Source: Thermoanaerobaculia bacterium (GTDB taxonomy: Bacteria; Acidobacteriota; Thermoanaerobaculia; Multivoradales; J023). From it: 64,000 bases of DNA. Where the stretch lies: the NCBI GenBank assembly GCA_030431255.1, contig JAUIJL010000025.1, forward strand, positions 62,001 to 126,000. Direction: 5' to 3'. The position numbers and the translations under genes were made by a program. Positions 35,101 through 51,818 of this stretch are shown here, in pieces (position 1 is the stretch's first letter; every line of letters begins with the position of its first letter). The notes below the pieces were generated by a model. It saw only the letters and a list, made by a program, of their open reading frames with translations, ran no database searches and had not been told where the DNA came from.

Positions 35101-35681
35101 GACATCAGGCGGGCCGCCACCACCTTGGCCAGGCCGTCCACCTCGATGGGTTTGGCCCCGCGGCGGACGTCCTCCAGCGGATTCTCCCGCAACCACACCT
35201 CACCGAAGTGAATCCCAGTTCGAGCCTTGAGCTCGCGGCCTTCCTCATTTGAAAGGCCGGCAAGCTCCTCGTGGTAATCCAGGGCAAAGCTCAGCGCCTG
35301 GATCGGTCGCTCGAAAAGCAGCAGAAAACCGTCGGTTTTATCGATCTCGCGCCCCCCGTGGCGCGCCAAGAGATCTCGGGCCACGCGATCGTGCCGCGCC
35401 CCCAGCTCCGCCGCACGCCGATCACCGAGGGTCTCCACCAATGCGGTGCTGCCCACCAGATCGCAAATCAGCAACGCGCGCAGCACCTCGCCCTGCTCCT
35501 CGGAGCCGGCAGCGACCGGAGCCTTGGAATCGCCCGGGGCTCCGGCATCGTCGCCGGTCTGCTGAACCTCCCGCGGCTCTTCCACCTGCGCGTCGGCGAA
35601 AGGCTCTAAAGCGGTCCCGCACCTGAAGCAGTGGGTGACTTCTTCCGGCCAGGACGTGGAGCATTTGGGGCAAGTGAGCAA
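32100..35681 (-). CDS. Zinc-ribbon / nucleotide cyclase / Ser-Thr kinase / TPR protein
   Basis: I prefer the TTG at 35681 (GAGGAAAG upstream, product LTCPKCSTSWP...), giving 1193 residues; the frame is open to 35753. In order: a zinc ribbon (CPKC, then CFRCG); a class III adenylate/guanylate cyclase domain (LRALLICDLVGSTALVE and EIDKTDGFLLLF); a protein kinase domain with LGEGGFGEAWLA, the catalytic loop VLHKDIKPSNIL and DFG; one transmembrane helix (VAVTASMALVLVSVLAVWAL); and about twelve kinesin-light-chain type TPRs of 42 residues (LGPEHPDTLWTMGNLAN). The cyclase and kinase are cytoplasmic and the TPR part extracytoplasmic. It lies between mini-ROK and mini-CHAT. Confidence 0.88.
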   Translation of the reverse strand: MLTCPKCSTSWPEEVTHCFRCGTALEPFADAQVEEPREVQQTGDDAGAPGDSKAPVAAGSEEQGEVLRALLICDLVGSTALVETLGDRRAAELGARHDRVARDLLARHGGREIDKTDGFLLLFERPIQALSFALDYHEELAGLSNEEGRELKARTGIHFGEVWLRENPLEDVRRGAKPIEVDGLAKVVAARLMSIGEGGQTLLSAAAFNLARRSAVGLDGSEDLVWLDHGTWDLHGVADPVDVYEVGREGRAPLRAPLESEKVHRLVKQPRVEGWRPAPGLTVPARPHWQVEERLGEGGFGEAWLARHTKTDELRSFKFCFDAERLRALQREITVFRLLKEELGDRPDINRILDWNLDKAPYFIESEYTRAGDLKQWSEAEGGLEKVPLATRLEIVAQVADALAAAHSVGVLHKDIKPSNILIQKRSGGRIQAQLADFGIGQVTDKKRLAEAGITALGISGRSRGESTSSQSGTPLYMAPELLEGRAPTLQADIYALGVVLYQVAAGDFRRVLAQGWKRDIGDELLAEDIAAFVDGSPERRPPSAVDVAQRLRSLETRREEHRAAELERRSREASRRRRAIYRAVAVTASMALVLVSVLAVWALNAGREERRARETTERVLDFMVDLFEITDPFSSEQPGEKRGQTITARELLDRGAERVEAELDAEPLVQARLMSTYGKIYLSLGLFEKAQSLLERALAVREDRLGARHPDTLTTRHDLSRAFHEKGDYARSKEIAEQVLEGRRWALGSEHPDTLLAMGTLAYGHAALGEYEEAERLRHQTLEAQERVLGAEHPDTLATMGSLANSLSALGKHGEAKQLYEQTLELRTRMLGSEHPDTLWTMGNLANSYFALGEYAEAQRLGEQALQVRTRVLGPEHPDTLWTLGLLANTHSNLGEYAEAEQLNTRNLEVRTRVLGPEHPDTLWAMGNLANSHADLGEYAEAERLRRQTLELRTRLLGAGHPYTLLTMRNLADDLMHLGNYPQARELLEQSLGAMEQALGPAHELVLYSRSGLAMVMARQGELKEAERIQADVLSTAKKTFGDENRHAMDAIGNLGEIVWRGGEWARAKPILEQALAIHQKVLVPDFPSTQKIKTHLAGALWKLGDVERAKELAGAAWELLEAKLGPQHVLTTLAAHRLLEIARDEQDSVAARQWLGRLQWLAETPEQDIVSADQREIRRMVLEAAESEVLE

Positions 35682-35764
35682 TGTTCTTTCCTCTTCGAGC
35701 CGAGATCCATGGCCAGAGCAGCGGACATCCGCTACCCAGCGGCCCTGCGTCATGGCGTCGGCGC

Positions 35765-36176: not shown

Positions 36177-37070
36177 CTAGCTCCCGCCCACCTTCCTAGC
36201 CAGCTCGAACGCTCCGCAGATACCGGCGGAGTCGCCGAGCTCAGGGGCCACCAAATAGGATTCGGCTCCCGATTCGATGATCGGCGATTGGACGTAACCG
36301 CCCAGGCCTTCGACCAGCTGGTGGCGGATTTTTTCGATCAATCCTGGCGCTTTGCTCACCCCCCCACCGAAGATCAGGCGTTCGGGAGAAAGAGCGAGAG
36401 TCAAGTTGGCGGCGGCGGTGCCCAAATAGTAGGCCTCCAGCTCCCAAGCCCGATGATCCGCCGGCAGAGTCTCGGCTGGGCGGCCCCAGCGTGCGGCGAT
36501 GGCCGGTCCGGAGGCCAGACCTTCCAGACAGGCTCCGTGGTACAGGCAGATGCCGGCGAAATCGTCTTCCGGGTGTTTGGGCAACATGAGGTGTCCCATC
36601 TCGGGATGGATCAGGCCATGGACGGGCTCACCACGGATGACTGCGCCGCCGCCGATGCCGGTGCCCACGGTGACGTAGGCCACGGAGCCGAGGCCCCGGC
36701 CGGCGCCCCATCGCAGCTCTCCTAGGGCCGCGCCGTTGACGTCCGTATCGAAACCCACCGGCACGCCCAGCTGTCGCGACAGGCGACCCGCGACGTCGGT
36801 GTGTGCCCAGCCGGGTTTCGGCGTGCTGGTGATAAAACCCCAGGTCGGCGAATCCGGCGACAAGTCCACGGGACCGAACGACGCCACCCCCAAAGCGACC
36901 AACGGACCGTGCTCCCCCGCCTGCCGACGGAAGAAATTCACCACCGTAGCTAGAGTCGTTTCAGGATCGGTGGTGTCGATCCGCTCGTGGGCTCGGAGGT
37001 CGTCCGGCCCGGTTCCCACCGCGCAGATCCATTTGGTGCCTCCGGCTTCGATACCGCCGTAGAGGGTCAT
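36177..37070 (-). CDS. ROK-family sugar kinase, probable fructokinase
   Basis: A 297-residue protein. The N-terminal phosphate loop is GIEAGGTKWICAVG. The ROK signature is complete: GTGIGGGAVIRGEPVHGLIH PEMGHL, followed by the zinc site with the His of PEMGHL, GICLYHGACLEGLASGPA. This CxxHxxC arrangement is characteristic of ROK fructokinases. It would phosphorylate the fructose released by the amylosucrase encoded 61 bp upstream. It is the last gene of the receptor-symporter-amylosucrase operon. Confidence 0.9.
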   Translation of the reverse strand: MTLYGGIEAGGTKWICAVGTGPDDLRAHERIDTTDPETTLATVVNFFRRQAGEHGPLVALGVASFGPVDLSPDSPTWGFITSTPKPGWAHTDVAGRLSRQLGVPVGFDTDVNGAALGELRWGAGRGLGSVAYVTVGTGIGGGAVIRGEPVHGLIHPEMGHLMLPKHPEDDFAGICLYHGACLEGLASGPAIAARWGRPAETLPADHRAWELEAYYLGTAAANLTLALSPERLIFGGGVSKAPGLIEKIRHQLVEGLGGYVQSPIIESGAESYLVAPELGDSAGICGAFELARKVGGS

Positions 37071-37131: not shown

Positions 37132-39051
37132 TCAGCTCAACCAAACCTGATCATAGGGCCCCAGCAGGAGCTCGGCGTCCAGATCGAGCCCTCGGTTCTG
37201 CAGATGGTCGTGGAGGCGATCCCCCAGCCCAAGCTCTCTCAAACGATACGCCGGGACGCTCTGATTTTCCTCGGAAAAATTCGCCAACACCAGGATGCGT
37301 CCGCGGGCGCTTTCCCGCAGCAGCCCGAAGACCCGATCGTTTTGGGTCCACACCGCTCGAGCCGAGGCGCTGCTGTGGAAAGCGTCGCAACGGGCGCGGG
37401 CTTCCGCCAGCCGCTTCACGGAAAGAAAGATTTTACCGGTCACGGTACCCGGGTCGTCGCGACGCTCCGCCGCTTGCCAGTCCATGGGCGGCCGATGCAC
37501 CCAACGCCCGTCGTCCGCCAGCTCAGAATCTTCCAAATAGGAAAAATCATTTCGCAATCCTAGCTCGTCGCCCATGTAGATCTGTGGGATGCCCGGAAAG
37601 GCGAAGATCACGCCGTAAAGTAGTTGAATCCGACGGATAGCCATGTCCACGTGGCCTTCGTCACCGCTTTCGAGGGCGGTTTCCAATCCCACCAACGACG
37701 CCAAAGCCCCGTTGATCCGCCGATCCCCCGTGCGCGGATTGTGTTGAAACACCGTGCCGCGGGAGAACGATCCAGAATAATCACCAAGGTAGAAATCCGA
37801 CAGAAACTTACGGTGCAACGCGGCGTCGAGGCCTACGGCGGCGGCGTCTTCGTCGGTGACCGCCCAGCCGATGTCATCGTGACAACGCAAGTAGGTAATC
37901 CAGGCGGCGTCGTGGGGGATGGTCGGCATTTGTTGCAGGGTGTGGGTGAGCAAGGCCACCCGCCGCTCCGCCAAGCTGCTCCACAGCATCACCATCAGCA
38001 CATTGTGGTAGGCGAGCTCGCATTCCCGACCCGCCGCCGCACCCCGGCCCAGGTAGGGCACCAGCTCCGGCGGCGGCACGATGGCTTCAGCCTTGTGCAG
38101 CAGCGCCGGCGCCGCCAAGCGGGAGAGGGCGCGAAGGGCTTGTAGCAAGAGATGGACCTCCGGCTGATTCTGGCATTGGGTGCCCAGACGCTTCCACATG
38201 AACGCCACCGCATCGAGACGCAGCACCTCGATGCCCCGGTTGGCTAGGAAACAAATATTACCCAACATCTCACCGAAGACTGCCGGATTGGTGTAATCGA
38301 GGTCCCATTGATACTCGTGGAAGGTGGTCCAAACCCAACGCTCGATCTCCGGCTGCCAGGTGAAATTCCCGGGAGCGAAATCGGGGAAGATCTCGAGCAA
38401 GCTCTGCTCGTAGCGATCAGGCAAGGTGCGATCCCGAAACATGTAGTAGTAGGCTTGGTAGGTGGGATCACCGGCCAAAGCACGACGAGCCCAGGCATGC
38501 TCCCGGGCGGTGTGGTTGCACACCAAATCGATGCACAGGCTGATGCCGTTACAGCGCAGCTCCCCAGCCAAATGCTCCAAGTCGTCCATGGTGCCCAAAC
38601 GCGGGGCCACCCGACGATAATCGCGCACGGCATACCCCCCGTCGCTCTCACCTTTTCGGGGCTCGAGGAGAGGCATCAGGTGCAAATACCGGACCCCGAG
38701 CTCTCGCAAATAGGGAATCCGCTGCTCCACTCCCTTGAGATCGCCGGCGAAGCGATCCGTATAACACACGTAGGCCAGCATCTCGCTGGTGAGGAACCAA
38801 TCCGGACGGGCGTATCGCTTGGCGTCGAGGCGCCGGAGCTCCGGCGATCGGTGGGCGTAGGCATGGCCGGCCACCCGCACGAGACGACCCAGCCACGCCT
38901 CAAAATCGCCCCGCTGCCCGTAGAGACCCTCCAATGGCCGTAAGACGTCGGGCCACAGGACATCCAGGCGGTCCATGAACGTATGCCGCTGCTCGACCGA
39001 CAGGCCGTCGAGCTCGACGGAAAGAGTTTGCTCCAAGTCTTTGCTCTTCAT
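37132..39051 (-). CDS. Amylosucrase (GH13)
   Basis: A 639-residue protein without signal peptide, close in length to the Neisseria polysaccharea enzyme (636). All GH13 motifs are present: CIDLVCNHT (region I), IEVLRLDAVAFMWKRLG (region II, nucleophile Asp), LLHKAEAIV (region III, acid/base Glu) and YLRCHDDIGW (region IV). The amylosucrase-specific PYLRELGVRYLHLMPLL, GDYSGSFSRGTVFQHNP and FPGIPQIYMGDELG are present too. The enzyme transfers glucose from sucrose to an alpha-1,4-glucan and releases fructose, in the cytoplasm. The gap to the symporter gene is 16 bp. Confidence 0.94.
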   Translation of the reverse strand: MKSKDLEQTLSVELDGLSVEQRHTFMDRLDVLWPDVLRPLEGLYGQRGDFEAWLGRLVRVAGHAYAHRSPELRRLDAKRYARPDWFLTSEMLAYVCYTDRFAGDLKGVEQRIPYLRELGVRYLHLMPLLEPRKGESDGGYAVRDYRRVAPRLGTMDDLEHLAGELRCNGISLCIDLVCNHTAREHAWARRALAGDPTYQAYYYMFRDRTLPDRYEQSLLEIFPDFAPGNFTWQPEIERWVWTTFHEYQWDLDYTNPAVFGEMLGNICFLANRGIEVLRLDAVAFMWKRLGTQCQNQPEVHLLLQALRALSRLAAPALLHKAEAIVPPPELVPYLGRGAAAGRECELAYHNVLMVMLWSSLAERRVALLTHTLQQMPTIPHDAAWITYLRCHDDIGWAVTDEDAAAVGLDAALHRKFLSDFYLGDYSGSFSRGTVFQHNPRTGDRRINGALASLVGLETALESGDEGHVDMAIRRIQLLYGVIFAFPGIPQIYMGDELGLRNDFSYLEDSELADDGRWVHRPPMDWQAAERRDDPGTVTGKIFLSVKRLAEARARCDAFHSSASARAVWTQNDRVFGLLRESARGRILVLANFSEENQSVPAYRLRELGLGDRLHDHLQNRGLDLDAELLLGPYDQVWLS

Positions 39052-39067: not shown

Positions 39068-40642
39068 TTACCAGAACATGCCGACGATGCCTGCGGTCAA
39101 CCCCAAGAGCAGCACCGAGAGAATCCGGTAATTCTGATACCAGGCCACCCCCTGAAGCTCCTCGGTCTCCCGACGCCATACCGCCGGCGACCAGGTGTAG
39201 GCCTCCAGCACCTTCGGGTCGGAAACCGGGGTCAGCAGGCTGACGACCACCCCCACCACCAGGCACAGCAGCAACAACAGGGGCGCGATGAGCAGGAAGT
39301 GCAGCTCGGGACGCACGATTAAAAGCCCCACCGCCCCCACCAAGCCGGCCATCAACGCCGCAAAGGCACCGTCGGCGGTGGCGCGCCGCCACAGCACGCC
39401 CATTAAAAATACCGCCACGATCGGTGGGGCGATGTAGGCCAAGGCGTTTTGCAGATAGCCGAAGAGAGAGCCGAAACGCTCGATTTGAGGCGCCCAGGCC
39501 GCCGCCGCCAACATGAATATGAAGGTCACCCAGCGGCCCACCTTCATCAGTTGCTCACCGGTCAGCTCTGGGCGATAGCGGGCGACGAAATCCATGGTCA
39601 CCAGGGTCGAGGCAGAGCTCAAGGTGGAGTCGATGGACGACATCAAGGCCGCGATCATGCCTGCTAGCACCAAGCCCAAAAGACCCACGGGCAAGAGGTC
39701 GAAGAGCAAGGTGGGAAAGACCAAGTCGGGCTGTTCGAGATCGGGATAGAGGGCGCGCGCCATGGTTCCCGGCAACACCATGAAGAAAATCACCGGTAGC
39801 TTTAGAAGCGCGGCGAAAAGCACCCCCCAACGTCCGTGTTGCACGCTCTTCGCCGCTAGAACCCGCTGCACCATGAACTGATTGGTACACCAAAAATAGA
39901 AGCCCAAAAGCGGCACGCCGAAGACCATTCCGAGCCACGGCATGAAGGGATCGCCCATGGGTCGCACCAGGCTCAGCATGTCCGGAGAGGTGACGGCGGT
40001 GACCGCGTCCCACGAGCCGACCTTTTTGAACGCCAGGAAGGTCACCATCACCGAGCCGATCAAAATCAGCACGGTCTGCACCGCGTCGGTGTAAATGACC
40101 GCCGCCAAGCCCCCAGCGATGGTGTAGACGCCGGCCAAAATCGCCAACACGGTGATGGTCACCCACAGCGGCACGTCCGGAAAGACCATTTTGAGCACCA
40201 AACCACCGGCGAAAAGGCTGCCGGCGGTGTCGATGACGATATTTCCAACCAAGGTGAGTATCGAGAAATAGGTGCGGGAGCGGCCATCGAAGCGCCGTTC
40301 CAAGAGCTCGGGCATGGTGTAGACCTTGGAGCTCAGGTAGAGGGGCAAGAAGAAGATCGCGAAGATCACCAGCACCACCGACGCCATCCACTCATAGTTG
40401 TAAACGGAGATGCCGGTGGAATAGGCGGAGCCGGAGAGCCCCACCAAGGTGGTGCTGGAGATATTGGACGCGAAGAGTGAGACGCCCACCAGGGGCCAAA
40501 TCATCGAACGGCCTGCGAGGAAATAATCCTCCGCATCGTGACGGGTGGCCGCCAATCGCAGCCCCAGCCACATGACGAACGCGATATAAACGACGATCAC
40601 GCCGAGATCGATCGGCGAAAGCGTGAAGGTAGGCACGAGCAT
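39068..40642 (-). CDS. Sodium/sugar symporter (SSS, SGLT-like)
   Basis: A 524-residue protein with about 14 helices. DAEDYFLAGRSMIWPLVGVS, LFASNISSTTLVGLSGSAYS and GGLAAVIYTDAVQTVLILIG match the sodium:glucose branch of the SSS family; DSTLSSASTLVTMDFVARYR contains the conserved Na2-site Ser/Ser/Asp region. Its place between the TonB-dependent receptor and the amylosucrase points to sucrose as substrate, which is inference. The gene differs clearly from the SSS gene at 5468. Confidence 0.9.
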   Translation of the reverse strand: MLVPTFTLSPIDLGVIVVYIAFVMWLGLRLAATRHDAEDYFLAGRSMIWPLVGVSLFASNISSTTLVGLSGSAYSTGISVYNYEWMASVVLVIFAIFFLPLYLSSKVYTMPELLERRFDGRSRTYFSILTLVGNIVIDTAGSLFAGGLVLKMVFPDVPLWVTITVLAILAGVYTIAGGLAAVIYTDAVQTVLILIGSVMVTFLAFKKVGSWDAVTAVTSPDMLSLVRPMGDPFMPWLGMVFGVPLLGFYFWCTNQFMVQRVLAAKSVQHGRWGVLFAALLKLPVIFFMVLPGTMARALYPDLEQPDLVFPTLLFDLLPVGLLGLVLAGMIAALMSSIDSTLSSASTLVTMDFVARYRPELTGEQLMKVGRWVTFIFMLAAAAWAPQIERFGSLFGYLQNALAYIAPPIVAVFLMGVLWRRATADGAFAALMAGLVGAVGLLIVRPELHFLLIAPLLLLLCLVVGVVVSLLTPVSDPKVLEAYTWSPAVWRRETEELQGVAWYQNYRILSVLLLGLTAGIVGMFW

Positions 40643-40702: not shown

Positions 40703-43366
40703 TCAGAATTGGTAACGCAACGACACGCCCGCTGAGCGACCGGGGATCGACCGCGCCCGGATGATGTTCACTTGGTTGTCGATGATCGCCCCCTCTTCCG
40801 ACTCGGTGATGCCGAATTCGTCGAAGAGGTTGTTGACGTTGGCGAGCAGGGTCAAGCTTCCGGTGAGCGCCACGTCGGCGAAGAGGTTCACCTGCTCGAA
40901 ACCGGGCATCTTCAATTGGTTGTTGTCCTGGGCATAAGAATCCGTGGTACCGACGATGTTCAAGCCCAAGCCGAATTTCGAATGACGAAATTCCGGGGTC
41001 AGCTGGAAGACCATATCCGCTTGACGCCGAGGTGTGTTGCCGACGTTCGCTGGACTGATCTCGTCGGAGGCGATCTCGGCGTCGGTGAAGGTCACTCCGC
41101 CGCGGATGTTGAAGGCGCCCCGCTGGTAAGCGGCTTCGATCTCGATGCCCTGAGCCTCGTAGACACGATCCAGGAATCGTTGGCTGGTGGCCTCGAAGTT
41201 CTGTTCTTCGGTTTCCGCTTGGAAGAGGGTCACGAATAGGCTCATATTGTCGCTACGCCACTTGATGCCCAGCTCGAATTGATCCACCTCGTCCACTGCG
41301 TCCTCTTCGCGCACCGAGCCGTCGGGGCCCACCAAGCCGAAGAGCAAACGATCGGCGTTGGCGCGGCCGCCACTGCTGAGGCGGGCGAAACCCGCGAAAT
41401 CGTCGTTGAAGAGATAGTTGGCACCCACCGAATAGGAAGTGTACGACCAATCATAATTGACCGGCGCCGCGCGACCGTTGTCGATCAAAGAGACGCTCTC
41501 CTCCACCGCCGAGATCACTCCGTCTCCGTCGACGTCGAAGTCGGAGACCTGCAATGTGCCGGCGTAGGTTCCGAAGGCGTCGCCGCTGTCGAAACGGACG
41601 CTGGCGTCGAGGCTCAGCTTGCCGCTGTCGTAAGCCAGGGACACATAAGGCGCGTCGATATCGTATTCCGTGTCGTAGCTGCGCTGACAGCAATTGCCCC
41701 AGAAGGGCACACCGTAGGCGTAGAGGCCGTTGACCGAGCGGAGCGAGCCGTCGGCGGCGACCACATCGAGCAGGGCCGCGTTGTCACCTTGAAGCTCCAT
41801 CAGATAAGAATTCCACACCCAATCCATGTTGATGGTCTGGCGGGATTTGTAATAGCCGAGCTTCAGGTGCACCTGCGCGTCGTCACCCACATCGAAGGAC
41901 TTGGTGAGCTGCAGGTCGTTGGCCACGTTGCCGAAATCGTTGATCTCGGTATTGAAGACGTGGGTGCGGATCACAGTGCCGCCATAACCGGCCCCGGCGC
42001 TCACACCGTTGGCGTAGATCAAGCTGGAGCCGGCCCCGCCGATGGACGCCGCCACCGACGCCGCGTCAGTCACCTCCGCCGGGAACGGCGACACAAACCG
42101 GCCGCTGTTGTCGGCCACGCGGAAACGATCTGTCAACGTCCATCCGCCTTTGAGGTCGAAGGAAAACTCAGCACCGATGGCCGTGGTTTTCGGACGCATG
42201 CCGTCGGTGATGTCGGTCACCCGGTAGTTGTTGTTGCCGTCGAGCCCCACATCCCGCAGGAAGTAGACGCTGTGGGGGGTGTCGGTACCCGGGTCGAAAG
42301 TCGAAAAACCACCTAAGCTCGGGGAGCTGTTGGTGCCGGTGACTCGCACGGGCATGGGCAAATAACCGATCGCCCGATCGTCGAGCACCTTGACGTAGAA
42401 TCTGGCGTAGCCGTTCTCGAAGTAGCGGGTGATGTTGGCCTTCAGCTGACCGCCGTCCTCGGCCGTATAACCCGCCTCGCGCACCCCTTCCCCGCTGCGA
42501 TAGAAGCCGGCCACGTGGTAGCTCCAATTCTCACCAGCCGAGCCACCGTAAGCGAATTCGAAGCGGGTGCTGTCGTAATCGAGCCCGCTCGTGATGCCCA
42601 CTCTGCCGCCGGGGGTGGTGCCCGTGCGGCTGACGAAGTTGATCACACCGCCCGGGGAGTTGCTCGCCAGGGTCGAAGCCGAGCCGCCGCGAACCGCTTC
42701 GATGCGCTCGATGGAGAGGTCGTGGCGCAGGAAGATGTCGGCGTTGCCGAAAGCGATGTCGCCGAATTCCATCACCGGTAGACCGTCTTCCTGCAATTGC
42801 AGGAATTTGGCGCCACCCGCCGCCACCGGCAAACCGCGCACGGCGATGTTGGCGTTGCCCTCACCGCCGGTAGACTCGGAGCGAATGCCCGGCACGTTGC
42901 GGAAGATTTCCGCCGTGGAACGTGGTGCGGACTCTTGAATCGTCTCCGCGTCCACGGTGCTGACGGAGATCGAGGACTCCAGCTTGGACGCCTGATTGAC
43001 ATTAGCGGTCACCACCACCGTGTCGAAATTGAGCACGTCCAGCTCGAGGGTGAAGTCCACCATCGCGGCGCCGTCGGCGGAGACCTGGGCCGGTTTCGAA
43101 TCCGAGCGGAAACCGTTCATAGTCACATCCACCACGTAGTCGCCGGCATCCACACTGGCGAAGGCGTATTTGCCGTCGGCCTCGGTGACCGCAAAAAGAG
43201 ACGTTCCTTGCACCAAAACGGTGGCTCCGGGCAAGGGCGAGCCCCCCAGATCCGTCACCGTGCCGCCCAGCTCACCGGCCCAGGCCGTGAGCGGGAGACA
43301 GGCTGCGAGCAAAACGATCGAGACTAGACGGCAAGCTTGCCGCGGGCAAAAGCTGGAAGACGACAT
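40703..43366 (-). CDS. TonB-dependent outer-membrane receptor, candidate sucrose receptor
   Basis: Start set at 43366, after GGAGG and directly before the signal peptide (LVSIVLLAACLPLTAWAGEL); the frame is open to 43420. The 887-residue protein has a carboxypeptidase-regulatory-like domain (LGGTVTDLGGSPLPGATVLV), a TonB-box-like DTVVVTANV, a plug domain (STAEIFRNVPGIRSESTGGE, GGSASTLASNSPGGVINFVS) and a 22-strand barrel ending in GVSLRYQF. Such receptors import large or scarce sugars with TonB energy. It leads an operon with a Na+/sugar symporter, amylosucrase and fructokinase, so sucrose is the likely ligand. Confidence 0.9.
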   Translation of the reverse strand: MSSSSFCPRQACRLVSIVLLAACLPLTAWAGELGGTVTDLGGSPLPGATVLVQGTSLFAVTEADGKYAFASVDAGDYVVDVTMNGFRSDSKPAQVSADGAAMVDFTLELDVLNFDTVVVTANVNQASKLESSISVSTVDAETIQESAPRSTAEIFRNVPGIRSESTGGEGNANIAVRGLPVAAGGAKFLQLQEDGLPVMEFGDIAFGNADIFLRHDLSIERIEAVRGGSASTLASNSPGGVINFVSRTGTTPGGRVGITSGLDYDSTRFEFAYGGSAGENWSYHVAGFYRSGEGVREAGYTAEDGGQLKANITRYFENGYARFYVKVLDDRAIGYLPMPVRVTGTNSSPSLGGFSTFDPGTDTPHSVYFLRDVGLDGNNNYRVTDITDGMRPKTTAIGAEFSFDLKGGWTLTDRFRVADNSGRFVSPFPAEVTDAASVAASIGGAGSSLIYANGVSAGAGYGGTVIRTHVFNTEINDFGNVANDLQLTKSFDVGDDAQVHLKLGYYKSRQTINMDWVWNSYLMELQGDNAALLDVVAADGSLRSVNGLYAYGVPFWGNCCQRSYDTEYDIDAPYVSLAYDSGKLSLDASVRFDSGDAFGTYAGTLQVSDFDVDGDGVISAVEESVSLIDNGRAAPVNYDWSYTSYSVGANYLFNDDFAGFARLSSGGRANADRLLFGLVGPDGSVREEDAVDEVDQFELGIKWRSDNMSLFVTLFQAETEEQNFEATSQRFLDRVYEAQGIEIEAAYQRGAFNIRGGVTFTDAEIASDEISPANVGNTPRRQADMVFQLTPEFRHSKFGLGLNIVGTTDSYAQDNNQLKMPGFEQVNLFADVALTGSLTLLANVNNLFDEFGITESEEGAIIDNQVNIIRARSIPGRSAGVSLRYQF

Positions 43367-43476
43367 AGTGACCTCCGCAGGGGTCGGTGCTCGGCCCCGT
43401 GTGGTTTGGGTGCTGAGCACCGTGTGGACCGAGAAGGCCGTGGGGATCGGAAAGGGCCTTCCCTGAGATGTTCGGT

Positions 43477-43500
43477 GTTCGGTCGTCTGGAGGACCGAAC
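43477..43500 (-). promoter_or_regulatory. Hairpin in the receptor 5' leader
   Basis: GTTCGGTC (43477-43484) and GACCGAAC (43493-43500), a perfect 8-bp inverted repeat with 8-nt loop about 110 bp before the receptor start. It could be a leader hairpin or an operator half. Confidence 0.45.
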
Positions 43501-43644
43501 CGGCTCGTTGATGGGAAAATTCTCAACAACCGACCGGATAACGGTCAACGAGAAAGAACAAATTGCCGCTGTAGGACGCCAGAATCTCGATTGCCGCTCG
43601 AAATCCTCAACAAACTTAGAGAAAACCGAGGAGATACTCGATAA

Positions 43645-43668
43645 AATCTAAACAGAGTTGTTTAGATT
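43645..43668 (+). promoter_or_regulatory. Perfect dyad, candidate operator of the MerR-GH13 regulator
   Basis: AATCTAAACA (43645-43654) and TGTTTAGATT (43659-43668) with a 4-nt spacer, 46 bp before the TTG start of the MerR-GH13 gene and within the divergent promoter region. MerR-family dimers bind dyads of about this size, so this is the best candidate site for autoregulation and control of the receptor operon. Confidence 0.65.
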
Positions 43669-43714
43669 CCTATTCTGAACCCTTCTGTTTAATTTTCACC
43701 GATCGGAAACAACC

Positions 43715-46700
43715 TTGCCCACCGACCGTTCCACCCGCCTTCCCATACGCGTCGTCGCCGAACGGACTGGTCTTGAGCCGTATCTCATCCGGACTTGGGA
43801 GAAGCGCTACGGGGCAATCACTCCCCAGCGCACCGTAGGCCGTCATCGCACCTTCGACGAGAATGACGTAGAGCGCTTGATCTTGCTCCGCCGGGTGGTG
43901 GAAAGCGGCCATCGCATCTCGCGGGTGGCCCATTTGGACGACGGCGCCTTGCGGCGGCGGCTGGAGCAGACCGAAGATCCGCCTCTCAGCGATCCCGGCT
44001 CGACGGGAATCGCCCCGGTCACCCGAGCGACAACCACCCAAACTACCGTATCGGTGCCAAACCCACGGCCTGGGGTAACGGCACCCATCCCGCCGTCGCC
44101 AATCGTCCAACCGACACCATTGCTGGACGAGCCGTCGCACCACGAGCCGTCCCTGCCCGGCATCGAGGCCTGCCTCTCCGCCGCCCGGCGGCTCGACGCC
44201 CCAGCCCTCAACTCAGCGCTCGAACGGGATTTAGTGGAGGTCGGCCCCCAACGGGTATTGGCCCGCTTGGTCGAGCCGCTGATCCAACGCCTGCGCGGGG
44301 CCGTACGGCGTGGAGACCTACGACCCATGCACGCCCAAATGGCCGAGGTGGTGTTGCGCTCCTTCGTCGACAGCCTGATGAGGCGCCGCCGTATCCCCGA
44401 AGTCGCTCCTCCCTTGGTAGTGGTCACCCTGCCGGGAGCCGGCCTCGACCTCACCGCCCATCTGGCGTCCGCGGCCGCCGTGCACGCGGGTTGGCAGGTG
44501 GTGCTTTTAGGCAGCGGTCTGGCGGTGGAAGAAGTGGCAGCGGCGGCTCGCCAGGTCGAGGCCCGGGCCTTGGCCTTGGTGCTCGACCGAGCCGAGCCCC
44601 ACCTGGGAGAGGAGCTGTTGCGCCTCCGCCGCCTGCTCACGGCACCCGTGACGATCCTCGCCCAAGGCCCCGCCGTCCACGCCTACCAAGAATATTTGCG
44701 CGCGGCGGAGATGATCGCCATCGACTCCTCTGAGCACTTAGGACGCCTGCTTACAGAGCTTTCGAGCTCGCCGGCCACGCGCCCGATGGCCTGGGCACCG
44801 CGCCGGGCAGACGAACGCTTCGATGCGGCCTCGCCCGCGCCCGCGCCATCGCTCGAGGGCCTCGCTCGGCCGTCCCGCTCCACCGCCCGCCGTGAGCTGC
44901 CCTTGTGTCGGCAAGCCCGGGAACGGCTACCCCTCGACGACCAGCTGATCGGCCCCGGTGGGGGCCTGCGCATCGACGACCTCCACCGTCTGCGCTTGGC
45001 ATTGCTGAGCCTCAACGAGCATCGGCCGCCCGAAATCGCCTTGCGGACCGGACGCCTCGCCGCCCTGGGACTGCTCGACAGCTTCGCCGGCCGCCAGATC
45101 GACGCCTATCGTCGATCCCAACGCCGGCGATCGGGCCAAGACGTCATGGAGCTCGCCGCCCAGGCCCTACAAGAACGACACGGACAAGAGCGTCTTTCCG
45201 CCGTCTTCCGCGCCCTCGACCTCGCCTTTCCCCGCCCCCACGCCGGGGCCGAGCCCAACGCCGAGCGATTGCAACGGCTGTGGCGCATTTGGCTCTTGGC
45301 CACCAATCCAGCGGCGAGCGTGGAGCGAGACCTCTTCGATTCCGGAGAGCTGGACCGGGTGGGCTACGGCCCTATCGTACAAAGCCTCGAAGGATTCTTC
45401 CGCCGCCGGCCCGCCGTTGAGCTCGACGGCAACTACCTCTTCGAGCTGGTGAGGCGCCCCATTCGCCGGGGCCGCGAGTCTCTGGAGCGCCAGCTCGAGG
45501 CCCTGCGCGACGCGGTTCAACGCTTGGAGCAAGAGCGGGTCGACGCCGTGCTCGTGGGTCTCGATTTATTACATGAGGAAAGCGGTGATCTGAAGGGACA
45601 ACCTCTGAGCCCGCCACCACCAGTGGAAGCGTTGGACTTCGCCGACGTCGCGCGGTCGGACTTCGCTTTCCGGGAAGAACCAGCGTGGATGCGCGAGGCG
45701 GTGGTCATTGCCAAACACGTTCACGTGTGGCTTGGACAGCTCTCCGAGCTGCACGGTCGTCGTATTCGCCGCCTGGACGAAATCCCCGACGCCACCTTGG
45801 ACCTCTTGAGGTCCAGAGGCTTCAACGTGTTGTGGATGATCGGCATGTGGCGCCGCAGCCCGGCTTCGAGACGCATCAAACATCTCACCGGCCACGCCCA
45901 AGCCATCTCCTCCGCCTACGCTGTCGATTGCTACGCGGTGGCCGATGATCTCGGAGGTGAGACAGCCCTCGAAAGCCTGCGGAGCCGCTGTGCCGAGCGT
46001 GGGCTTCGCTTAGCATGCGACGTGGTGCCCAACCACATGGGGCTCGATAGCGAGCAGCTTTCGACGCGACCCGAGGACTTCCTCTCCCTCGAACGCTGCC
46101 CATTCCCCGACTACTCCTTCGACGGCCCCGATCTTTCACCCGAGGATCCGACCATGACCGTGCACCTGGAAGACGGCTATTACGATCAAAGCCGCGCGGC
46201 GATCGTATTCCGGCGTACGGATCGCGAATCCGGCGAGGTGCGCTACATTTACCACGGCAATGACGGCTCCGGCCTGCCGTGGAACGACACCGCCCAGCTC
46301 GACTACCTTTCCCCGGACGTGCAAGAGCGATTCCTCGATCAATTGGTGGCCCTAGCTCGACGCTTCTCCGTCATCCGCCTCGACGCGGCCATGGCGCTCG
46401 TCAAACAGCACATCCAACGGCTGTGGCACCCACGACCGGGCCAAGGCGGAGCCGTACCCTCGCGGGCCCAACACGGCGTGGACGCGGAGACCTTCGACCT
46501 CCGCTTGCCGGAAGAGCTGTGGCGGCTCGCGGTGGAGCGGCTCGATCAAGAAGCGCCGGAAACCCTGCTTTTAGCCGAAGGCTTCTGGTTGATGGAAACC
46601 TATTTCCTCTCCACCTTGGGTATGCATCGGGTGTACCACAGCGCCTTTTCGCACATGTTGCGCGAAGAGCGAAATGAGCCCTTCCGTCGGAGCCTGGAGA

Positions 46701-47389
46701 ACATTCTGGCGTTCGAGCCGCGCCTGCTTGAACGCTTCGTGTGTTTCTTGACCAGCCCCGACGAGCCGTCGGCCGCCGCCCAGCTAGGTAAAGGCGACAA
46801 ATACTTCGCCCTTTGCATCATGCTCGCTACTTTGCCGGGAGTTCCGCTCTTCGGACACGGCCAAGTGGACGGCCTGCTGGAGCAATACGGCATGGACTAC
46901 CGCCACGCCCACTACCTGGAAGCCCCCGACCCCGCCTTCGTCGCCCGCCACGAGCGGGAGATCGCCCCCTTGTTGCAGCATCGTCGTTTGTTCGGCAACG
47001 CCAAGGCCTTCGAGCTCGTTGACGTGCACCTCCGGGACGACGGCCCCGTGTGCCAAGACGTCTTCGCCTTCGCAATCCACGACCCCGACTCCGCCGGAAG
47101 CCTCGATCGAGCCTTGATCTTGGTGCACAACCGCCGAGCCGTTGTCCGCGGCACCCTTCGCCTCACCGCGCCCCGTCGCACCCACGACGACGACCGCCCC
47201 CAGCGCCGAAACCTTGCCCAGGCCTTAGGCCTCGACCCCTCCCGTGCCGAGCATTGGACCTTGATCGATACCGCCAAAGAAAAGAGCCTAACCGTCAGCT
47301 GCCACGAGCTGGAAAACGGTCTGCCTTTGGAGCTCGGACCCTACGAAGCAAAGGTATTCACCGAGTTTGTGGCCGAGGACGTGCCTTGA
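43715..47389 (+). CDS. MerR regulator / CarH-like domain fused to GH13 alpha-amylase-family enzyme
   Basis: One uninterrupted frame of 1224 residues, start TTG. Residues 8-85 are a MerR-type winged helix (IRVVAERTGLEPYLIRTWEK RYG, then GRHRTFDENDVERLILLRRV). Residues about 145-350 follow the CarH/LitR plan: a four-helix cap, then a Rossmann-like domain (PPLVVVTLPGAGLDLTAHL, GWQVVLLGSGLAVEEVAAAA). The cobalamin-ligating His (ExHxxG in CarH) is replaced: GAGLDLT. Residues about 400-660 match the N-terminal region of a large GH13 group, and 690-1224 are the catalytic barrel: RLACDVVPNHMGLD, SVIRLDAAMALVKQH (Asp nucleophile), TLLLAEGFWLME (Glu), CFLTSPDEPSA (region IV, DE instead of HD). No signal peptide. 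Divergent from the sucrose operon; a DNA-binding, glucan-sensing regulator is inferred. Confidence 0.85.
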   Translation: MPTDRSTRLPIRVVAERTGLEPYLIRTWEKRYGAITPQRTVGRHRTFDENDVERLILLRRVVESGHRISRVAHLDDGALRRRLEQTEDPPLSDPGSTGIAPVTRATTTQTTVSVPNPRPGVTAPIPPSPIVQPTPLLDEPSHHEPSLPGIEACLSAARRLDAPALNSALERDLVEVGPQRVLARLVEPLIQRLRGAVRRGDLRPMHAQMAEVVLRSFVDSLMRRRRIPEVAPPLVVVTLPGAGLDLTAHLASAAAVHAGWQVVLLGSGLAVEEVAAAARQVEARALALVLDRAEPHLGEELLRLRRLLTAPVTILAQGPAVHAYQEYLRAAEMIAIDSSEHLGRLLTELSSSPATRPMAWAPRRADERFDAASPAPAPSLEGLARPSRSTARRELPLCRQARERLPLDDQLIGPGGGLRIDDLHRLRLALLSLNEHRPPEIALRTGRLAALGLLDSFAGRQIDAYRRSQRRRSGQDVMELAAQALQERHGQERLSAVFRALDLAFPRPHAGAEPNAERLQRLWRIWLLATNPAASVERDLFDSGELDRVGYGPIVQSLEGFFRRRPAVELDGNYLFELVRRPIRRGRESLERQLEALRDAVQRLEQERVDAVLVGLDLLHEESGDLKGQPLSPPPPVEALDFADVARSDFAFREEPAWMREAVVIAKHVHVWLGQLSELHGRRIRRLDEIPDATLDLLRSRGFNVLWMIGMWRRSPASRRIKHLTGHAQAISSAYAVDCYAVADDLGGETALESLRSRCAERGLRLACDVVPNHMGLDSEQLSTRPEDFLSLERCPFPDYSFDGPDLSPEDPTMTVHLEDGYYDQSRAAIVFRRTDRESGEVRYIYHGNDGSGLPWNDTAQLDYLSPDVQERFLDQLVALARRFSVIRLDAAMALVKQHIQRLWHPRPGQGGAVPSRAQHGVDAETFDLRLPEELWRLAVERLDQEAPETLLLAEGFWLMETYFLSTLGMHRVYHSAFSHMLREERNEPFRRSLENILAFEPRLLERFVCFLTSPDEPSAAAQLGKGDKYFALCIMLATLPGVPLFGHGQVDGLLEQYGMDYRHAHYLEAPDPAFVARHEREIAPLLQHRRLFGNAKAFELVDVHLRDDGPVCQDVFAFAIHDPDSAGSLDRALILVHNRRAVVRGTLRLTAPRRTHDDDRPQRRNLAQALGLDPSRAEHWTLIDTAKEKSLTVSCHELENGLPLELGPYEAKVFTEFVAEDVP

Positions 47390-47442: not shown

Positions 47443-47562
47443 CTAGCCCGGACCTTCACATCAAACCTTCACTGATGAACGGTGCCCAGAAATATGGATG
47501 GGTTTCAAGGCCTTTTCGGCGACGATCCAGGAGGACCTCGCGGGAGGCGCGACGGGAGGCGT
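47443..47562. repeat. Source copy of the 120-bp duplication found at 35887-36006
   Basis: Same sequence as 35887-36006 apart from two bases. It covers the last 36 codons of the TPR-CHAT gene and 13 bp behind it. Confidence 0.9.
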
Positions 47563-50386
47563 CGGGCAGATCGAGGCCGATGTCGAAAAGGCTTCGGTAG
47601 AAGACGGTCATCCACTGCTCGGCCACCGCGTCGTCCACCGGCCACAGGCTCGACAACAAGCGCTTGGCTCCGGCCACCCGGAATGCCCGGCGCAGGCCCA
47701 AGACTCCCTCGCCGGGCACCGCTCGACCCAGGGCCGTGTCACAGGCGGAGAGCACCACCAGCTGCGCGCGGGAAAGGTCGAGGGCAGCGATTTCCTCGGC
47801 GGTCAGGATGCCGTCGTCTTCGGCGGACGCGGCTCGATGCCGACGGTTGGCACCCGCCATGACCAGCCCGGACCGCAAAAACGGCTCGGTGTCCCCACTC
47901 ACCTCGGGCAAACATTCCTGGCCGAGCAAGAACCCGTGGGTCGCCAAATGCAAATATCGACTCTCGGGCGCCGACGCTCGAAACGCTGCTTCACCGGCAT
48001 CGGAGCCGGACAGCTCGGTGACCCGTAGCCCGCCCCCCTCAAAGCTGCGGGCCAGCTCCGCAACCCGTCGCGCTTCCGAAGCCGAGCCGTCCAGGGCGGC
48101 GAAGCGACGATCCCTGAGCGCTGAGCACGCACCCGTCGACGCGGTGGGATTCGCCTCGAAGCGAGCGCTCGACACTTCCGCCGCATCCTCCCCCAATCCA
48201 GCCGGCGCGTCGAAGTCCACGCCACCGACCGTCAACAAGGCGTTGGGCCCCTGGACGGGAGCACTTTCGATCGACACTATTTCCCGTTCCGTGGTCACGA
48301 TGTGGGTGGCCGGTCCGTGCTCCACCCAATAGCTGCCGTCTTCCATCACCAGGGCGTTCCACTGCACCCGATGAAGCTCGGAATCCGGCACGATCACCAC
48401 CCTGGCGGGCTCCCCGAGCTCGGCGGCGACGGGATCCCAAATCGCGGATCGCAGCCGTCGGGCGGCTTGTTGGTATCGGCTTTCGGAATGGCGGGCGATC
48501 CAGGTGAGATATGTCTCGACGCGCCGGTCGATCAAGTCGGCCGGCCCCAGTGGCACGGCCGCCACACCCATCGTGTCCACGGCGCCGGCCGGTCGCACAA
48601 AGGCCATATACGAAGGCACGCCAGGGCGGTCGGGCTCGCTCGACGATAGGTGGTGATAGCGCACGAAGGCGACCAAAGCGTCGCCCTTGGGAATCTTTCG
48701 CAACACTTCCTCCAGACCCGTGCGCCGCCGTTCCAAACCGCGACGGAAGACCCGGCTCGACTCCGCCAAGGCGCTTTCCGCCGCGTCTCGCCGATTCATC
48801 GCTTCCGCCAGGTGGCGGGGATTGCCCAGACGATCCACCACTTGCACGTAGAGCGTGGCCAGCCTGCGGCGCGCTTCGACGAGCTCGCGGATCTGTTCCT
48901 GGATCAAGGGATGGCTCTCTTTCGACATCTGCCGACGGGACAACACCTCTTCGAGCACCAAGGCCCGCGATCGGATCACGCCGTCCCAGGCTCGACGGGC
49001 GTTGCCGCCACCCTCGGACGTCAGGGTGAGGACCGTATCGAGACCCCGCGATCGATCCAAGCTGACGTAAATCGCCTGCTTCTCCGCCAGCACGTCGACG
49101 CTGGTCACCAGGGCCGTTCGGGCCCGGCTCTCCGCCTGCAAAGCCAAGTCGAAAGCCTCCTGATCGTGCCCCGCCTCAAAGAGCAATCGGGCGGTTTCCG
49201 CCAGGTTCCGAGCGACCTCGGGGTGCTCCCGAAACGGCCCCTGATCATGCACGGCAATCGCTTTTTGATAGTGGTCGAGGGCGTCCGTCGGTCGCCCGGA
49301 GCGACGGTAGAGATCCCCCAATCGTCGGTGCACCACCGCCGTTCGGTAGGCGTTCGGTCCGAGGCTCGCCTGCAGATTGTCGAGGGCGGTCAATAGCTGT
49401 AGCTCGGCTTCCTCGGTCTGCCCGGACTCCGTCAAGACCCGACCCAACGACGCCCGGGCCAATCCCAAATAGAAGTGGTCTTGCCCCAAAAGCTCCGTCC
49501 ACAGGGCCACGACTCGGCGCAGGGATCGAATGGCCTCCTCATCCCGCCCGAGACGGCTCAGCAAAAAAGATCGGTTGTAGAGGTTACGGCCCAAGGCTCG
49601 ATGCTCCGGTCCGAAGAGCTGCTCATACAGTCGACCGGCCTGTTGAAACAAGGCCTCGCTGCGCCCATGGTCGCCGGTGACGACCGTCAACATGGCCAAG
49701 CTGCTCAGCACCTCTGCCACCAAGGCACGCTCGGTCGTATAGCCCTCGGCGGCCAAGATCTGCTCGAAGCTTCCCAGCTCTGCTTCCAACACGCGAAGAG
49801 CTTCTTCGTAGGCCTCTTTCGCCCGTCCCAGATCTCCGGCCTCAAACAGTAGGATCGCCGAGTAGTTGCGGGTTCGAGCCGCGGCGATCCGATCGCCTTC
49901 GCGCTCTTGCAGCTCATAGATCCGCTGATAAAGCTGCTCCGTTTCCGGCGCGTCCCGCCAGGAATGACTCAGACAAGCCAGCTCCAAAAGCACCTTGGCC
50001 AGGGCGGGATGGTACGGCCCCAACGCTTTCTCTTGCAGGGCGATCAGCTCCAGGAGGCGAGCTCGATCCGTCGGCTCGACATCTCGCCCCGCGCTGTGCA
50101 GGGCGTGGGCCAAGACCTCGACCACGGCACCCGCCAAAACCAAATCTTGCCCCGCCAGCTCCGCCGCCCGATGGAAAACCGGTCGCATCAAGGCCTCGGC
50201 TTCGTCGTATTTGCCTTCCGCCACCAGCCCCTTGGAACGTTCCAGCGCCTCGAGCACCAGCTCTCGACCCAGAGCCGCGTCCGCCGGCTCCGGCTCGGAA
50301 GGCTCAGCCGACACCGGACCGGCGATCGCGACGCCGAGACAAAACCACAGACAGACCGCGAGCATCTGCCATGGGCAACGGCTCAT
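47456..50386 (-). CDS. Exported TPR-CHAT (caspase-like) protein (CHAT operon 2)
   Basis: Start set at 50386, whose ATGA overlaps the stop of the preceding gene and which begins a signal peptide (MLAVCLWFCLGVAIAGPVSA); the open frame to 50500 has no initiation context. The 976-residue protein has about ten TPRs (residues 40-480), a helical linker (LEEVLSRRQMSKESHPLIQE), then the CHAT domain with catalytic His in RYLHLATHGFLLG and Cys in LVVLSACDTALGRAVPGEG, and GAKRLLSSLWPVDDAVAEQW. It is a likely periplasmic protease. The architecture mirrors the protein at 15684 but the sequences differ widely. A damaged copy of its 3' end lies at 35887-36142. Confidence 0.88.
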   Translation of the reverse strand: MSRCPWQMLAVCLWFCLGVAIAGPVSAEPSEPEPADAALGRELVLEALERSKGLVAEGKYDEAEALMRPVFHRAAELAGQDLVLAGAVVEVLAHALHSAGRDVEPTDRARLLELIALQEKALGPYHPALAKVLLELACLSHSWRDAPETEQLYQRIYELQEREGDRIAAARTRNYSAILLFEAGDLGRAKEAYEEALRVLEAELGSFEQILAAEGYTTERALVAEVLSSLAMLTVVTGDHGRSEALFQQAGRLYEQLFGPEHRALGRNLYNRSFLLSRLGRDEEAIRSLRRVVALWTELLGQDHFYLGLARASLGRVLTESGQTEEAELQLLTALDNLQASLGPNAYRTAVVHRRLGDLYRRSGRPTDALDHYQKAIAVHDQGPFREHPEVARNLAETARLLFEAGHDQEAFDLALQAESRARTALVTSVDVLAEKQAIYVSLDRSRGLDTVLTLTSEGGGNARRAWDGVIRSRALVLEEVLSRRQMSKESHPLIQEQIRELVEARRRLATLYVQVVDRLGNPRHLAEAMNRRDAAESALAESSRVFRRGLERRRTGLEEVLRKIPKGDALVAFVRYHHLSSSEPDRPGVPSYMAFVRPAGAVDTMGVAAVPLGPADLIDRRVETYLTWIARHSESRYQQAARRLRSAIWDPVAAELGEPARVVIVPDSELHRVQWNALVMEDGSYWVEHGPATHIVTTEREIVSIESAPVQGPNALLTVGGVDFDAPAGLGEDAAEVSSARFEANPTASTGACSALRDRRFAALDGSASEARRVAELARSFEGGGLRVTELSGSDAGEAAFRASAPESRYLHLATHGFLLGQECLPEVSGDTEPFLRSGLVMAGANRRHRAASAEDDGILTAEEIAALDLSRAQLVVLSACDTALGRAVPGEGVLGLRRAFRVAGAKRLLSSLWPVDDAVAEQWMTVFYRSLFDIGLDLPDASRRASREVLLDRRRKGLETHPYFWAPFISEGLM

Positions 50387-51153
50387 TCCGCGGGCTCCGG
50401 CACCCGGAATTCCAGGATCAGCAGCGGCTCCGAGCCGGCCGCCGAATGCCCCAGGGTCAATCCGTATGAACCGGGAAGCAACACATCCTGGTCGAGCCAC
50501 ACGGGCAGGCCGTCACTTCGCTCCAAGGAAGCCTTCCACGCTTGTGGAGCGATGGTTTGATCGACCACCGTCAGCCCTTCGCCGGCGCCGAGCCGCTTCA
50601 GCCGAATCCGAGCTCCCGATTGTAGGGCGACCCGCACCTCGCCGGGCACGTCCACCATCAAGACGGTCGGACCAGAGCTCGACGGGCTGACGATCGCCTC
50701 CGGCTCGTCGGCGCCTCGCGCCCCTTGCCGCCCCGGGCTCAACCACTCGAGCGCCGCCACGCCGCCCGACTCCGGCGACTGGTCGGGATCGCCGCTCCAC
50801 AGCCAAGAAAGGGGCAGGATCAAGATGCCGAGCAAGAAGCCCGCGGCCAGGGCGCGCCCATGCCGAAAACCCGAGCTCTTACCCCTCATCCCGAAGAATT
50901 CAGGGGTCGGCTCAAAGGAATCCTCGTAGAGTCTTTCGATTGGACCGTCCAAAGTTTCGAATCGCCTCGGCAGGTCGTCCGCCACCCGATCGATGGTCGC
51001 CGCCAACACATCCAGGCCCGAAGCTTCCTCGGCGTCGCCCTCTCCTCGGTCCGCCCTTGGATCCAGGGGCGGCTCCGGGGGTGGATCGGGCTCACAAAGC
51101 TCGTTGCTTTGGTCCATTTGGGCTTTCTCTGGAGCTTCTGAGGAGCTCTTCAT
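50383..51153 (-). CDS. Membrane anti-sigma factor candidate (CHAT operon 2)
   Basis: A 256-residue protein with an acidic, Pro-rich cytoplasmic part of about 125 residues (LDVLAATIDRVADDLPRRFE), one transmembrane helix (ALAAGFLLGILILPLSWLW), and a periplasmic domain of about 110 residues with beta-strand pattern (TVLMVDVPGEVRVALQSGAR) ending in EPLLILEFRVPEPAE. There is no zinc-finger motif. Topology, size and position between a sigma factor and a TPR-CHAT gene match the protein at 14689. Start and stop overlap both neighbours by four bases. Confidence 0.65.
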   Translation of the reverse strand: MKSSSEAPEKAQMDQSNELCEPDPPPEPPLDPRADRGEGDAEEASGLDVLAATIDRVADDLPRRFETLDGPIERLYEDSFEPTPEFFGMRGKSSGFRHGRALAAGFLLGILILPLSWLWSGDPDQSPESGGVAALEWLSPGRQGARGADEPEAIVSPSSSGPTVLMVDVPGEVRVALQSGARIRLKRLGAGEGLTVVDQTIAPQAWKASLERSDGLPVWLDQDVLLPGSYGLTLGHSAAGSEPLLILEFRVPEPAE

Positions 51154-51818
51154 GACACCCTCCTTTTGTCGGCGGCCCGCTGACGCTGCCCCCGGCTTTC
51201 CGATCCATCCTCTGCCTCAGCGACCTCCGACTCGGCGGCCTCCGACCCAGCGGCCAGTTGTTGAGCGGCGATTTTCAGCTGAGCGCGGGCATCGCGGGCG
51301 ATCGACCTCACCGACGCCTCGGCGATGCCAAGAATATCCGCGGTTTCCCGCCCGGAAAACCCACCGAGCTCATAGAGCCCCACCACCTCGCGCTGGCGAG
51401 GGGTCAAGGCGTCGAGCAGCTTGACCAACGTCATCCGCGCGTCCACCGCTCCGTGAGGTCGGTCATCCTCCGACTCGGCCTGATCTCGAAATCGATCGAA
51501 GAACGACTGACGACGCCCCCTGCCCCGCCGCAAATTCAACACTCGCCCCCGGATACCCGAAGCCACCCAAGCGAGAAACGAGCCCTTGTCGGGATCGAAA
51601 TCCTTCAGGTGACGCCAAGCGGCCAACAACGCTTCCTGCACCAGATCAGGTGCGTCGTCGGGTGGGGCGCCGAAGGCCAGAGCCAAACGAATCAATCGCG
51701 GCTCCGACTCGAATAGGAGTCTTTCCAAGGCGCGGCGATCGCCGTCGCGGGCCGCGACGGCCAACGCATCCAACGAGCGGGCGTCGGTCGGCGGACCCGA
51801 AGAAGTGGAGTGAGGCAT
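51150..51818 (-). CDS. ECF-type sigma factor (CHAT operon 2)
   Basis: A 222-residue factor. Region 2: LLFESEPRLIRLALAFGAPP, DDAPDLVQEALLAAWRHLKD, FLAWVASGIRGRVLNLRRGR. Region 4: LDALTPRQREVVGLYELGGF, SGRETADILGIAEASVRSIA. A C-terminal Ala/Glu-rich tail of about 40 residues is additional. CAGGAG lies before the ATG. It heads the second sigma/anti-sigma/CHAT operon. Confidence 0.9.
   Translation of the reverse strand: MPHSTSSGPPTDARSLDALAVAARDGDRRALERLLFESEPRLIRLALAFGAPPDDAPDLVQEALLAAWRHLKDFDPDKGSFLAWVASGIRGRVLNLRRGRGRRQSFFDRFRDQAESEDDRPHGAVDARMTLVKLLDALTPRQREVVGLYELGGFSGRETADILGIAEASVRSIARDARAQLKIAAQQLAAGSEAAESEVAEAEDGSESRGQRQRAADKRRVS

Follow-up and report, generated by a model that had tools for sequence, protein, structure and literature searches.

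The window analysed here, a stretch of 64,000 nucleotides from a Thermoanaerobaculia bacterium, contains a gene (43715-47389, + strand) in which a MerR-type regulator resembling the photoreceptor CarH is joined to a protein of the alpha-amylase family GH13. A DNA-binding domain and an enzyme domain are present in one chain, as in the enzyme-derived one-component regulators – ROK repressors, PutA, BirA, and NadR – in which an enzyme fold is fused to a DNA-binding domain. We propose, with a probability of about 0.58, that the window protein is a one-component local regulator in which a GH13 protein of an alpha-glucan-active type was fused to a CarH-type MerR regulator and has taken over its sensing. 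A swapped sensor is suggested because the residues of the B12 signature are lost from the window protein while stand-alone MerR-B12 proteins mostly keep them, and a sugar as the signal gains further because fused relatives adjoin amylase and maltose-transport genes. No enzyme-derived regulator known to us is built on a CarH scaffold or has a GH13 fold. No MerR-GH13 or other glycosidase-fused regulator was found in the literature, searched mostly outside subscription papers, and the available part of an article in Chem Rev that deals with alpha-glucan enzymes (PMC11046441) mentions neither MerR, nor helix-turn-helix (HTH), nor DNA-binding domains. Enzyme-derived regulators, CarH-type regulators, and GH13 enzymes are each familiar; judged by sequence, their combination appears to be new.

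The gene is an uninterrupted frame of 1224 codons with a TTG start, coding for 1224 amino acids, with no internal stop and with a coding-like codon-position GC (guanine plus cytosine) pattern that runs through the junction. The MerR winged helix (residues 9-74; 43739..43936, + strand as for all parts of the gene) carries the recognition-helix motif RTWEKRY and is supported by alignment, phmmer, and Pfam (MerR_1, residues 11-74, E 3.9e-11). It is followed by a CarH-like helix bundle (approximately residues 150-225; 44162..44389), recognized from CarH matches and alignment, and a CarH-like Rossmann domain (approximately residues 232-345; 44408..44749), recognized from alignment and from a Pfam B12-binding match (residues 234-337, E 4.6e-4) that lies under the Pfam cut-off. 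Among PDB sequences, phmmer matched CarH (3whp, 5c8d) at residues 11-66 and 154-295, and a profile of the window protein and nine relatives (alignment A3) matched CarH 3whp with an E of 2.1e-34; the NCBIfam CarH model gives the window protein 62 bits against a cut-off of 400. A linker (approximately residues 346-389; 44750..44881), delimited by comparison with stand-alone frames, leads to the GH13 protein, whose stand-alone relatives, which are frequent, begin near residue 390 of the window protein.

The GH13 protein itself begins with a helical domain (approximately residues 399-625; 44909..45589), seen in alignment and in the AlphaFold2 (AF2) model, which is common to the stand-alone relatives and barely covered by the PDB matches listed. 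The barrel and C-terminal beta domain follow (approximately residues 644-1220; 45644..47374), supported by alignment, the AF2 model, and structure matches; the Pfam Alpha-amylase match is partial (residues 695-780) and barely over the cut-off (E 5.1e-5). The AF2 model of residues 386-1224, built from a 42-row alignment, has a mean predicted local distance difference test score (pLDDT) of 86 and a predicted template modelling score (pTM) of 0.81, and over residues ~644-1220 it resembles alpha-amylase 3dhu (Z 29.3, 392 aligned, root-mean-square deviation 3.1) and GlgE structures (Z ~26.7). As modelled, the GH13 part is complete, with a (beta/alpha)8 barrel and a C-terminal beta domain. Pfam, the CarH matches, and the AF2 model thus agree with the earlier note on this DNA, which had described one frame joining a MerR winged helix, CarH-like domains, and a full GH13 enzyme.

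In CarH, according to the part of the source available (PMC9304148), the motif Wx9EH holds the adenosyl group and D/ExHx2G supplies the lower ligand, and the recognition helix of CarH and CarA reads RxWERRY. The recognition helix of the window protein, RTWEKRY, departs from this by one conservative change. In alignment A3, however, V197, A207, and Q208 stand in place of the W, E, and H of Wx9EH, and the lower-ligand motif reads GLDLT, with L244 for the histidine; among the stand-alone MerR-B12 rows of that alignment, seven of seven have the lower-ligand histidine and five of seven the whole of Wx9EH. With the recognition-helix motif kept and the B12 signature lost, the window protein is therefore likely to bind DNA and not likely to act as a B12 photosensor. 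The CarH-like architecture that the earlier note had read in the N-terminal part is upheld by the profile comparison, but the B12-binding signature is missing from it. The window protein thus shares with the adenosylcobalamin-dependent MerR photoreceptors of the CarH/LitR type, and with CarA, the succession of a winged helix with RxWE(R/K)RY, a helix bundle, and a Rossmann domain of B12 type. It differs in being without Wx9EH and the lower-ligand histidine, in carrying about 840 extra GH13 residues, and in being encoded beside sugar genes, whereas the myxobacterial CarH and CarA genes are described in the available part of the source as lying beside carotenoid genes (PMC9304148).

Homologues were sought in overlapping searches of 147 genomes of relatives, 72 of the order, and 148 of the class. 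Fusions are present in three of the 148 class genomes (G000, G018, and G031), with two in G000, the genome of the window (10.19 Mb in 54 contigs). The second G000 gene, on contig C49 (L034:9690-13322), is a 1254-codon frame with 39% identity over 298-1215, and its four B12-signature positions are all altered (H, L, R, W). The third fusion, in G018 – from another family of the same order – is a 1333-codon frame. The fourth, in its congener G031, comprises the MerR-B12 part, the linker, and the first residues of the GH13 protein (RRQLFVSLEARRRYR), beyond which the contig ends. In a tree of MerR-B12 halves (21 rows past the length filter, the four fusions included) the fusions fall on one side of a single branch (support 94/95), and in a tree of GH13 halves (39 rows, with 8 out-of-class rows kept and two fragments left out) three of the fusions form one clade (support 92/68). 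Because either half unites the fusions, a single fusion event is likely; some doubt attaches to both branches, and the C49 copy sits on a long one.

Divergent alpha-glucoside genes adjoin three of the four fused copies. The window gene diverges from an operon on the − strand consisting of a TonB-dependent receptor gene (40703..43420, the first gene; Pfam), a sodium/solute symporter gene of the SSF family (39068..40642; Pfam, NCBIfam), an amylosucrase gene (37132..39051; Pfam), and a gene for a ScrK-like ROK fructokinase (36177..37070; Pfam, with 270 bits for NCBIfam NF045550, under its cut-off of 400). The earlier note had already placed the gene opposite an amylosucrase operon, and the match of the amylosucrase to 7esh (E 9.7e-216) confirms this. 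The G018 fusion diverges from a GH13 amylase gene, genes of MalK/UgpC, MalE, and MalF type, a second permease gene, and a gene for a glucodextranase-C protein, UgpC being the one NCBIfam model at cut-off among these labels; the G031 fusion likewise diverges from a GH13 amylase gene, where the contig is too short to show more.

The parallel with Xanthomonas drawn in the earlier note also holds: in the part of the source available, the sux locus encodes the TonB receptor SuxA, the amylosucrase SuxB, the transporter SuxC, and the LacI/GalR-type repressor SuxR, with sucrose as inducer (PMC1790865). In both loci a regulator or regulator-like gene accompanies genes for a TonB receptor, an amylosucrase, and a transporter, but SuxR is of the LacI/GalR type whereas the regulator-like neighbour here is the MerR-GH13 fusion. 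The earlier note had gone on to suggest a one-protein sensor of the amylosucrase product. The idea of a sugar sensor is strengthened by the amylase and maltose-transport neighbours and the lost B12 signature; the glucan as its ligand is not favoured, because the Xanthomonas inducer is sucrose and what both contexts share is an alpha-glucoside rather than an amylosucrase glucan. Amylosucrase occurs in two other genomes of 71 in the order (G043, L173:8297-10243, 49% identity; G006, L174, split over frames), and no fused regulator of the window type was found in the stretches fetched around these two genes.

Under the reading that sensing passed to the GH13 protein, the winged helix would likely bind within the intergenic region (43421-43714), and the GH13 part would fairly likely be the sensor. 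A plausible ligand of the GH13 pocket is sucrose or a small sucrose-derived alpha-glucoside, and its binding would alter the oligomeric state, or the state of DNA binding, that the CarH-like part carries. The operon of TonB receptor, symporter, amylosucrase, and fructokinase could plausibly be switched in this way, most simply by relieved repression, by analogy with SuxR. Proteins of the G018/G031 type would bind maltose or maltodextrin instead.

Several observations weigh against this reading. The sugar itself differs between contexts, being sucrose for the window and of maltodextrin type for G018 and G031, and with few independent examples the context could be a coincidence. The C49 copy is without neighbouring sugar genes: it starts (from its first possible start) ~14 bp after a PRK/uridine-kinase-family gene, with AAA/HD and GMC-oxidoreductase genes behind, so it does not fit a sugar role, and it is probably a diverged regulator. 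It also carries D890G and D1016G, the loss of two of three catalytic residues, and by known chemistry should therefore be without normal GH13 activity. Nor is the loss of B12 sensing common to all fusions, since G031 retains Wx9EH and the lower-ligand histidine and G018 retains the W, the E, and the lower-ligand histidine but not the histidine of Wx9EH. The sole window congener examined, G001, gave no match at all in the order search, and the distribution of the fusion is therefore patchy. In an AF2 model of residues 1-1200 the N-terminal part has low confidence and was not used. Lastly, CarH operators consist of tandem 11-bp TnnACA repeats, and in the window intergenic region the best triple of such repeats is no better than in shuffled sequences (P 0.52 on the + strand, 0.94 on the −); a P of 0.013 on the + strand of locus L134, one of 8 scans, was not counted.

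The state of the active site bears on whether the GH13 half would sense by binding or by turnover. Conserved-region alignment identifies the catalytic Asp/Glu/Asp as D890, E955, and D1016, all kept in the window protein. Nine positions (D769, N773, H774, R888, D890, E955, P1015, D1016, and E1017) are each identical in all 104 stand-alone relatives, and none is changed in the window protein. The His-Asp pair of GH13 region IV is usual, not universal. The earlier note had taken SPDE in place of HD as a sign of reduced activity; this does not hold, as PDE (P1015-D1016-E1017) is found in 104/104 stand-alone relatives, with no HD pair there or in the window protein and with the catalytic Asp kept, and decay of region IV was accordingly rejected as a mark of a non-catalytic domain. 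The window protein could be a bifunctional trigger enzyme, of which PutA is an example: the GH13 part would still work as a glycoside hydrolase or transglycosylase, with substrate flux coupled to DNA binding through turnover instead of through binding alone. The catalytic triad and regions I-III are kept in the window and G018 fusions, with region IV as in the stand-alone family, and the whole GH13 fold is predicted confidently. The surroundings of the triad argue otherwise. At three positions without variation in the 104 stand-alones – M770 (next to D769), F889 (next to D890), and V965 – all three fusions are altered, and E955 has a changed neighbour, A956G, in two fusions and in none of the 104. 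Among 176 near-invariant positions the window protein keeps 149, G018 147, and C49 129, whereas the lowest of the 104 stand-alone rows keeps 95.5% (leave-one-out). The end branches of the fusions in the GH13 tree are long (1.03-1.95 against a median of 0.36), and the paralogue in the same genome is without D890 and D1016. By alignment, then, the window GH13 site has a retained triad in altered surroundings, and we regard a trigger enzyme as unlikely, if deserving of serious consideration. Of the 27 and 29 changed near-invariant positions in the window and G018 proteins, 12 are common to both (hypergeometric P 1.5e-4), and at 8 the two proteins have the identical residue. This overlap is explained equally well by shared descent or by shared function.

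A different signal may instead reach the MerR half – a partner protein, as in CarA-CarS, or light and B12 in the G018/G031 type – with GH13 as a tethered enzyme. The B12 signature that G031 keeps whole and G018 in large part speaks for this, as does CarA, which in the available part of the source is a B12-independent paralogue controlled by an antirepressor (PMC9304148). However, the window protein has lost all four B12-contact residues, and the siting of fusions beside alpha-glucoside genes would be left unexplained, so that this alternative seems rather improbable.

Most relatives are separate proteins and four copies are fused, in contrast to what would be seen if homologues were always separate, which the earlier note had named as grounds for abandoning its view. 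Few candidates were scored per genome (5 in the phylum search, 4 in the class search, up to 9 in the order search), because of which rare fusions could be missed. A MerR-B12 profile run on 396 phylum genomes (E 1e-25) gave, among the matches listed, no fusion beyond the two G000 copies, G018 and G031 lying outside that sample. A 1532-codon frame in G223 was considered as a fusion and rejected, being an open frame that extends upstream of a MerR-B12 gene and has no GH13 match. From the other side, the best 80 of at least 583 GH13-relative loci, from several phyla, were fetched and none had a MerR-B12 match; only 66 of the 80 could show one upstream, because 14 have less than 1.2 kb before the match. 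The rarity of the fusion, its absence from the congener, its fast evolution, and the dead site of the paralogue would all suit a neutral by-product or decaying gene with no regulatory role at the neighbouring operon. This we consider very improbable given long intact frames in two genera, coding composition throughout, the retained triad and recognition-helix motif, and the recurring divergent placement. An assembly artefact joining two genes, the other ground that the earlier note had named, is effectively excluded even for an assembly in 54 contigs, because independent fused copies exist – one more in the same genome, and two in another genus.

The stand-alone GH13 relatives, which share the triad and the PDE of region IV with the window protein, are without a MerR/B12 part, and the residues flanking their triad do not vary. 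They are up to 51% identical to the window protein (38-48% for 41 aligned rows, residues ~390-1218). Counting duplicate loci once, 28 of 31 stand-alone frames in the class extend at least 130 codons beyond the end of the match, a stretch missing from the fusion; the exceptions are L019 and L024, at contig ends, and L053. The family, with its N-terminal helical domain and PDE region IV, is widespread, including Chloroflexota, Spirochaetota, KSB1, Bacteroidota, and the same class. Pfam assigns its members to the general Alpha-amylase family only, and no curated NCBIfam family model reached cut-off for the two members searched. Of 134 neighbours listed around stand-alone genes, 90 were scanned, the three belonging to the G018 fusion and others, mostly short, being omitted. 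The commonest neighbour families are GH57 and DUF3536 (6/90 each), followed by thiolase (5), GAPDH, AlkZ-related, and NAD-epimerase types (4 each), nucleotidyl transferase (3), and starch synthase (2); sugar transporter families are missing from the 25 commonest of the 108 families found, and a setting like that of the fusions is thus not the rule around stand-alone genes. Such neighbours hint at a link with glycogen or alpha-glucan for some stand-alone genes.

The intergenic region contains a perfect dyad, AATCTAAACA-N4-TGTTTAGATT (43645..43668), which the earlier note had pointed out and which a repeat search confirms to have 10-bp arms; it is a candidate operator or autoregulatory site. With up to 3 mismatches allowed, the inner pattern with 9-bp arms does not recur elsewhere in the genome, a result consistent with autoregulation or with one local target but proof of neither. 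Three related 13-bp direct repeats (at 43517, 43601, and 43643, spanning 43517..43655 with spacings of 84 and 42) are weak candidate operators that could be due to chance. In front of the amylase genes of G018 and G031 (L035:11580-11633 and L134:1258-1312) is a conserved block in which TTGACA occurs twice, 20 bp apart. By eye, one TTGACA is followed by TATCAT at 16 bp, a candidate promoter and operator; as an operator the pair is only suggestive, because it overlaps a likely -35 element.

Other genes flank this locus in the window. A large protein with a Ser/Thr kinase domain and many TPRs (NF040586, FxSxx_TPR, over cut-off) is encoded at 32103-35753; part of it resembles TIGR04510, a putative peptide modification system cyclase, at 235 bits against a cut-off of 400. 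A CHAT-TPR protein is encoded at 47459-50500 (Pfam), and the open reading frames beside it (50386-51153 and 51153-51818) suggest, from a reading of their sequences, a membrane protein and a sigma factor of ECF type.

In its fuller form, for which we put the chances at about even, our proposal is of a new class of sugar regulator: a B12 light-sensing MerR scaffold, now without its cofactor site, would have been re-wired by a whole GH13 protein whose pocket senses sucrose or maltodextrin, and its duplicates would have diverged into a sensor with an intact site at the operon and a dead-site copy elsewhere. If the proposal is true, no GH13-based transcription regulator known to us would precede this one, which would also offer a testable scaffold for biosensors of sucrose or maltodextrin. 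The case would further represent the conversion of a cofactor photosensor into a carbohydrate sensor by enzyme capture, visible within one bacterial order, with intermediates preserved – the stand-alone halves, the G018 and G031 proteins in which the B12 site is mostly or fully kept, the window protein in which it is lost, and the dead-site duplicate.

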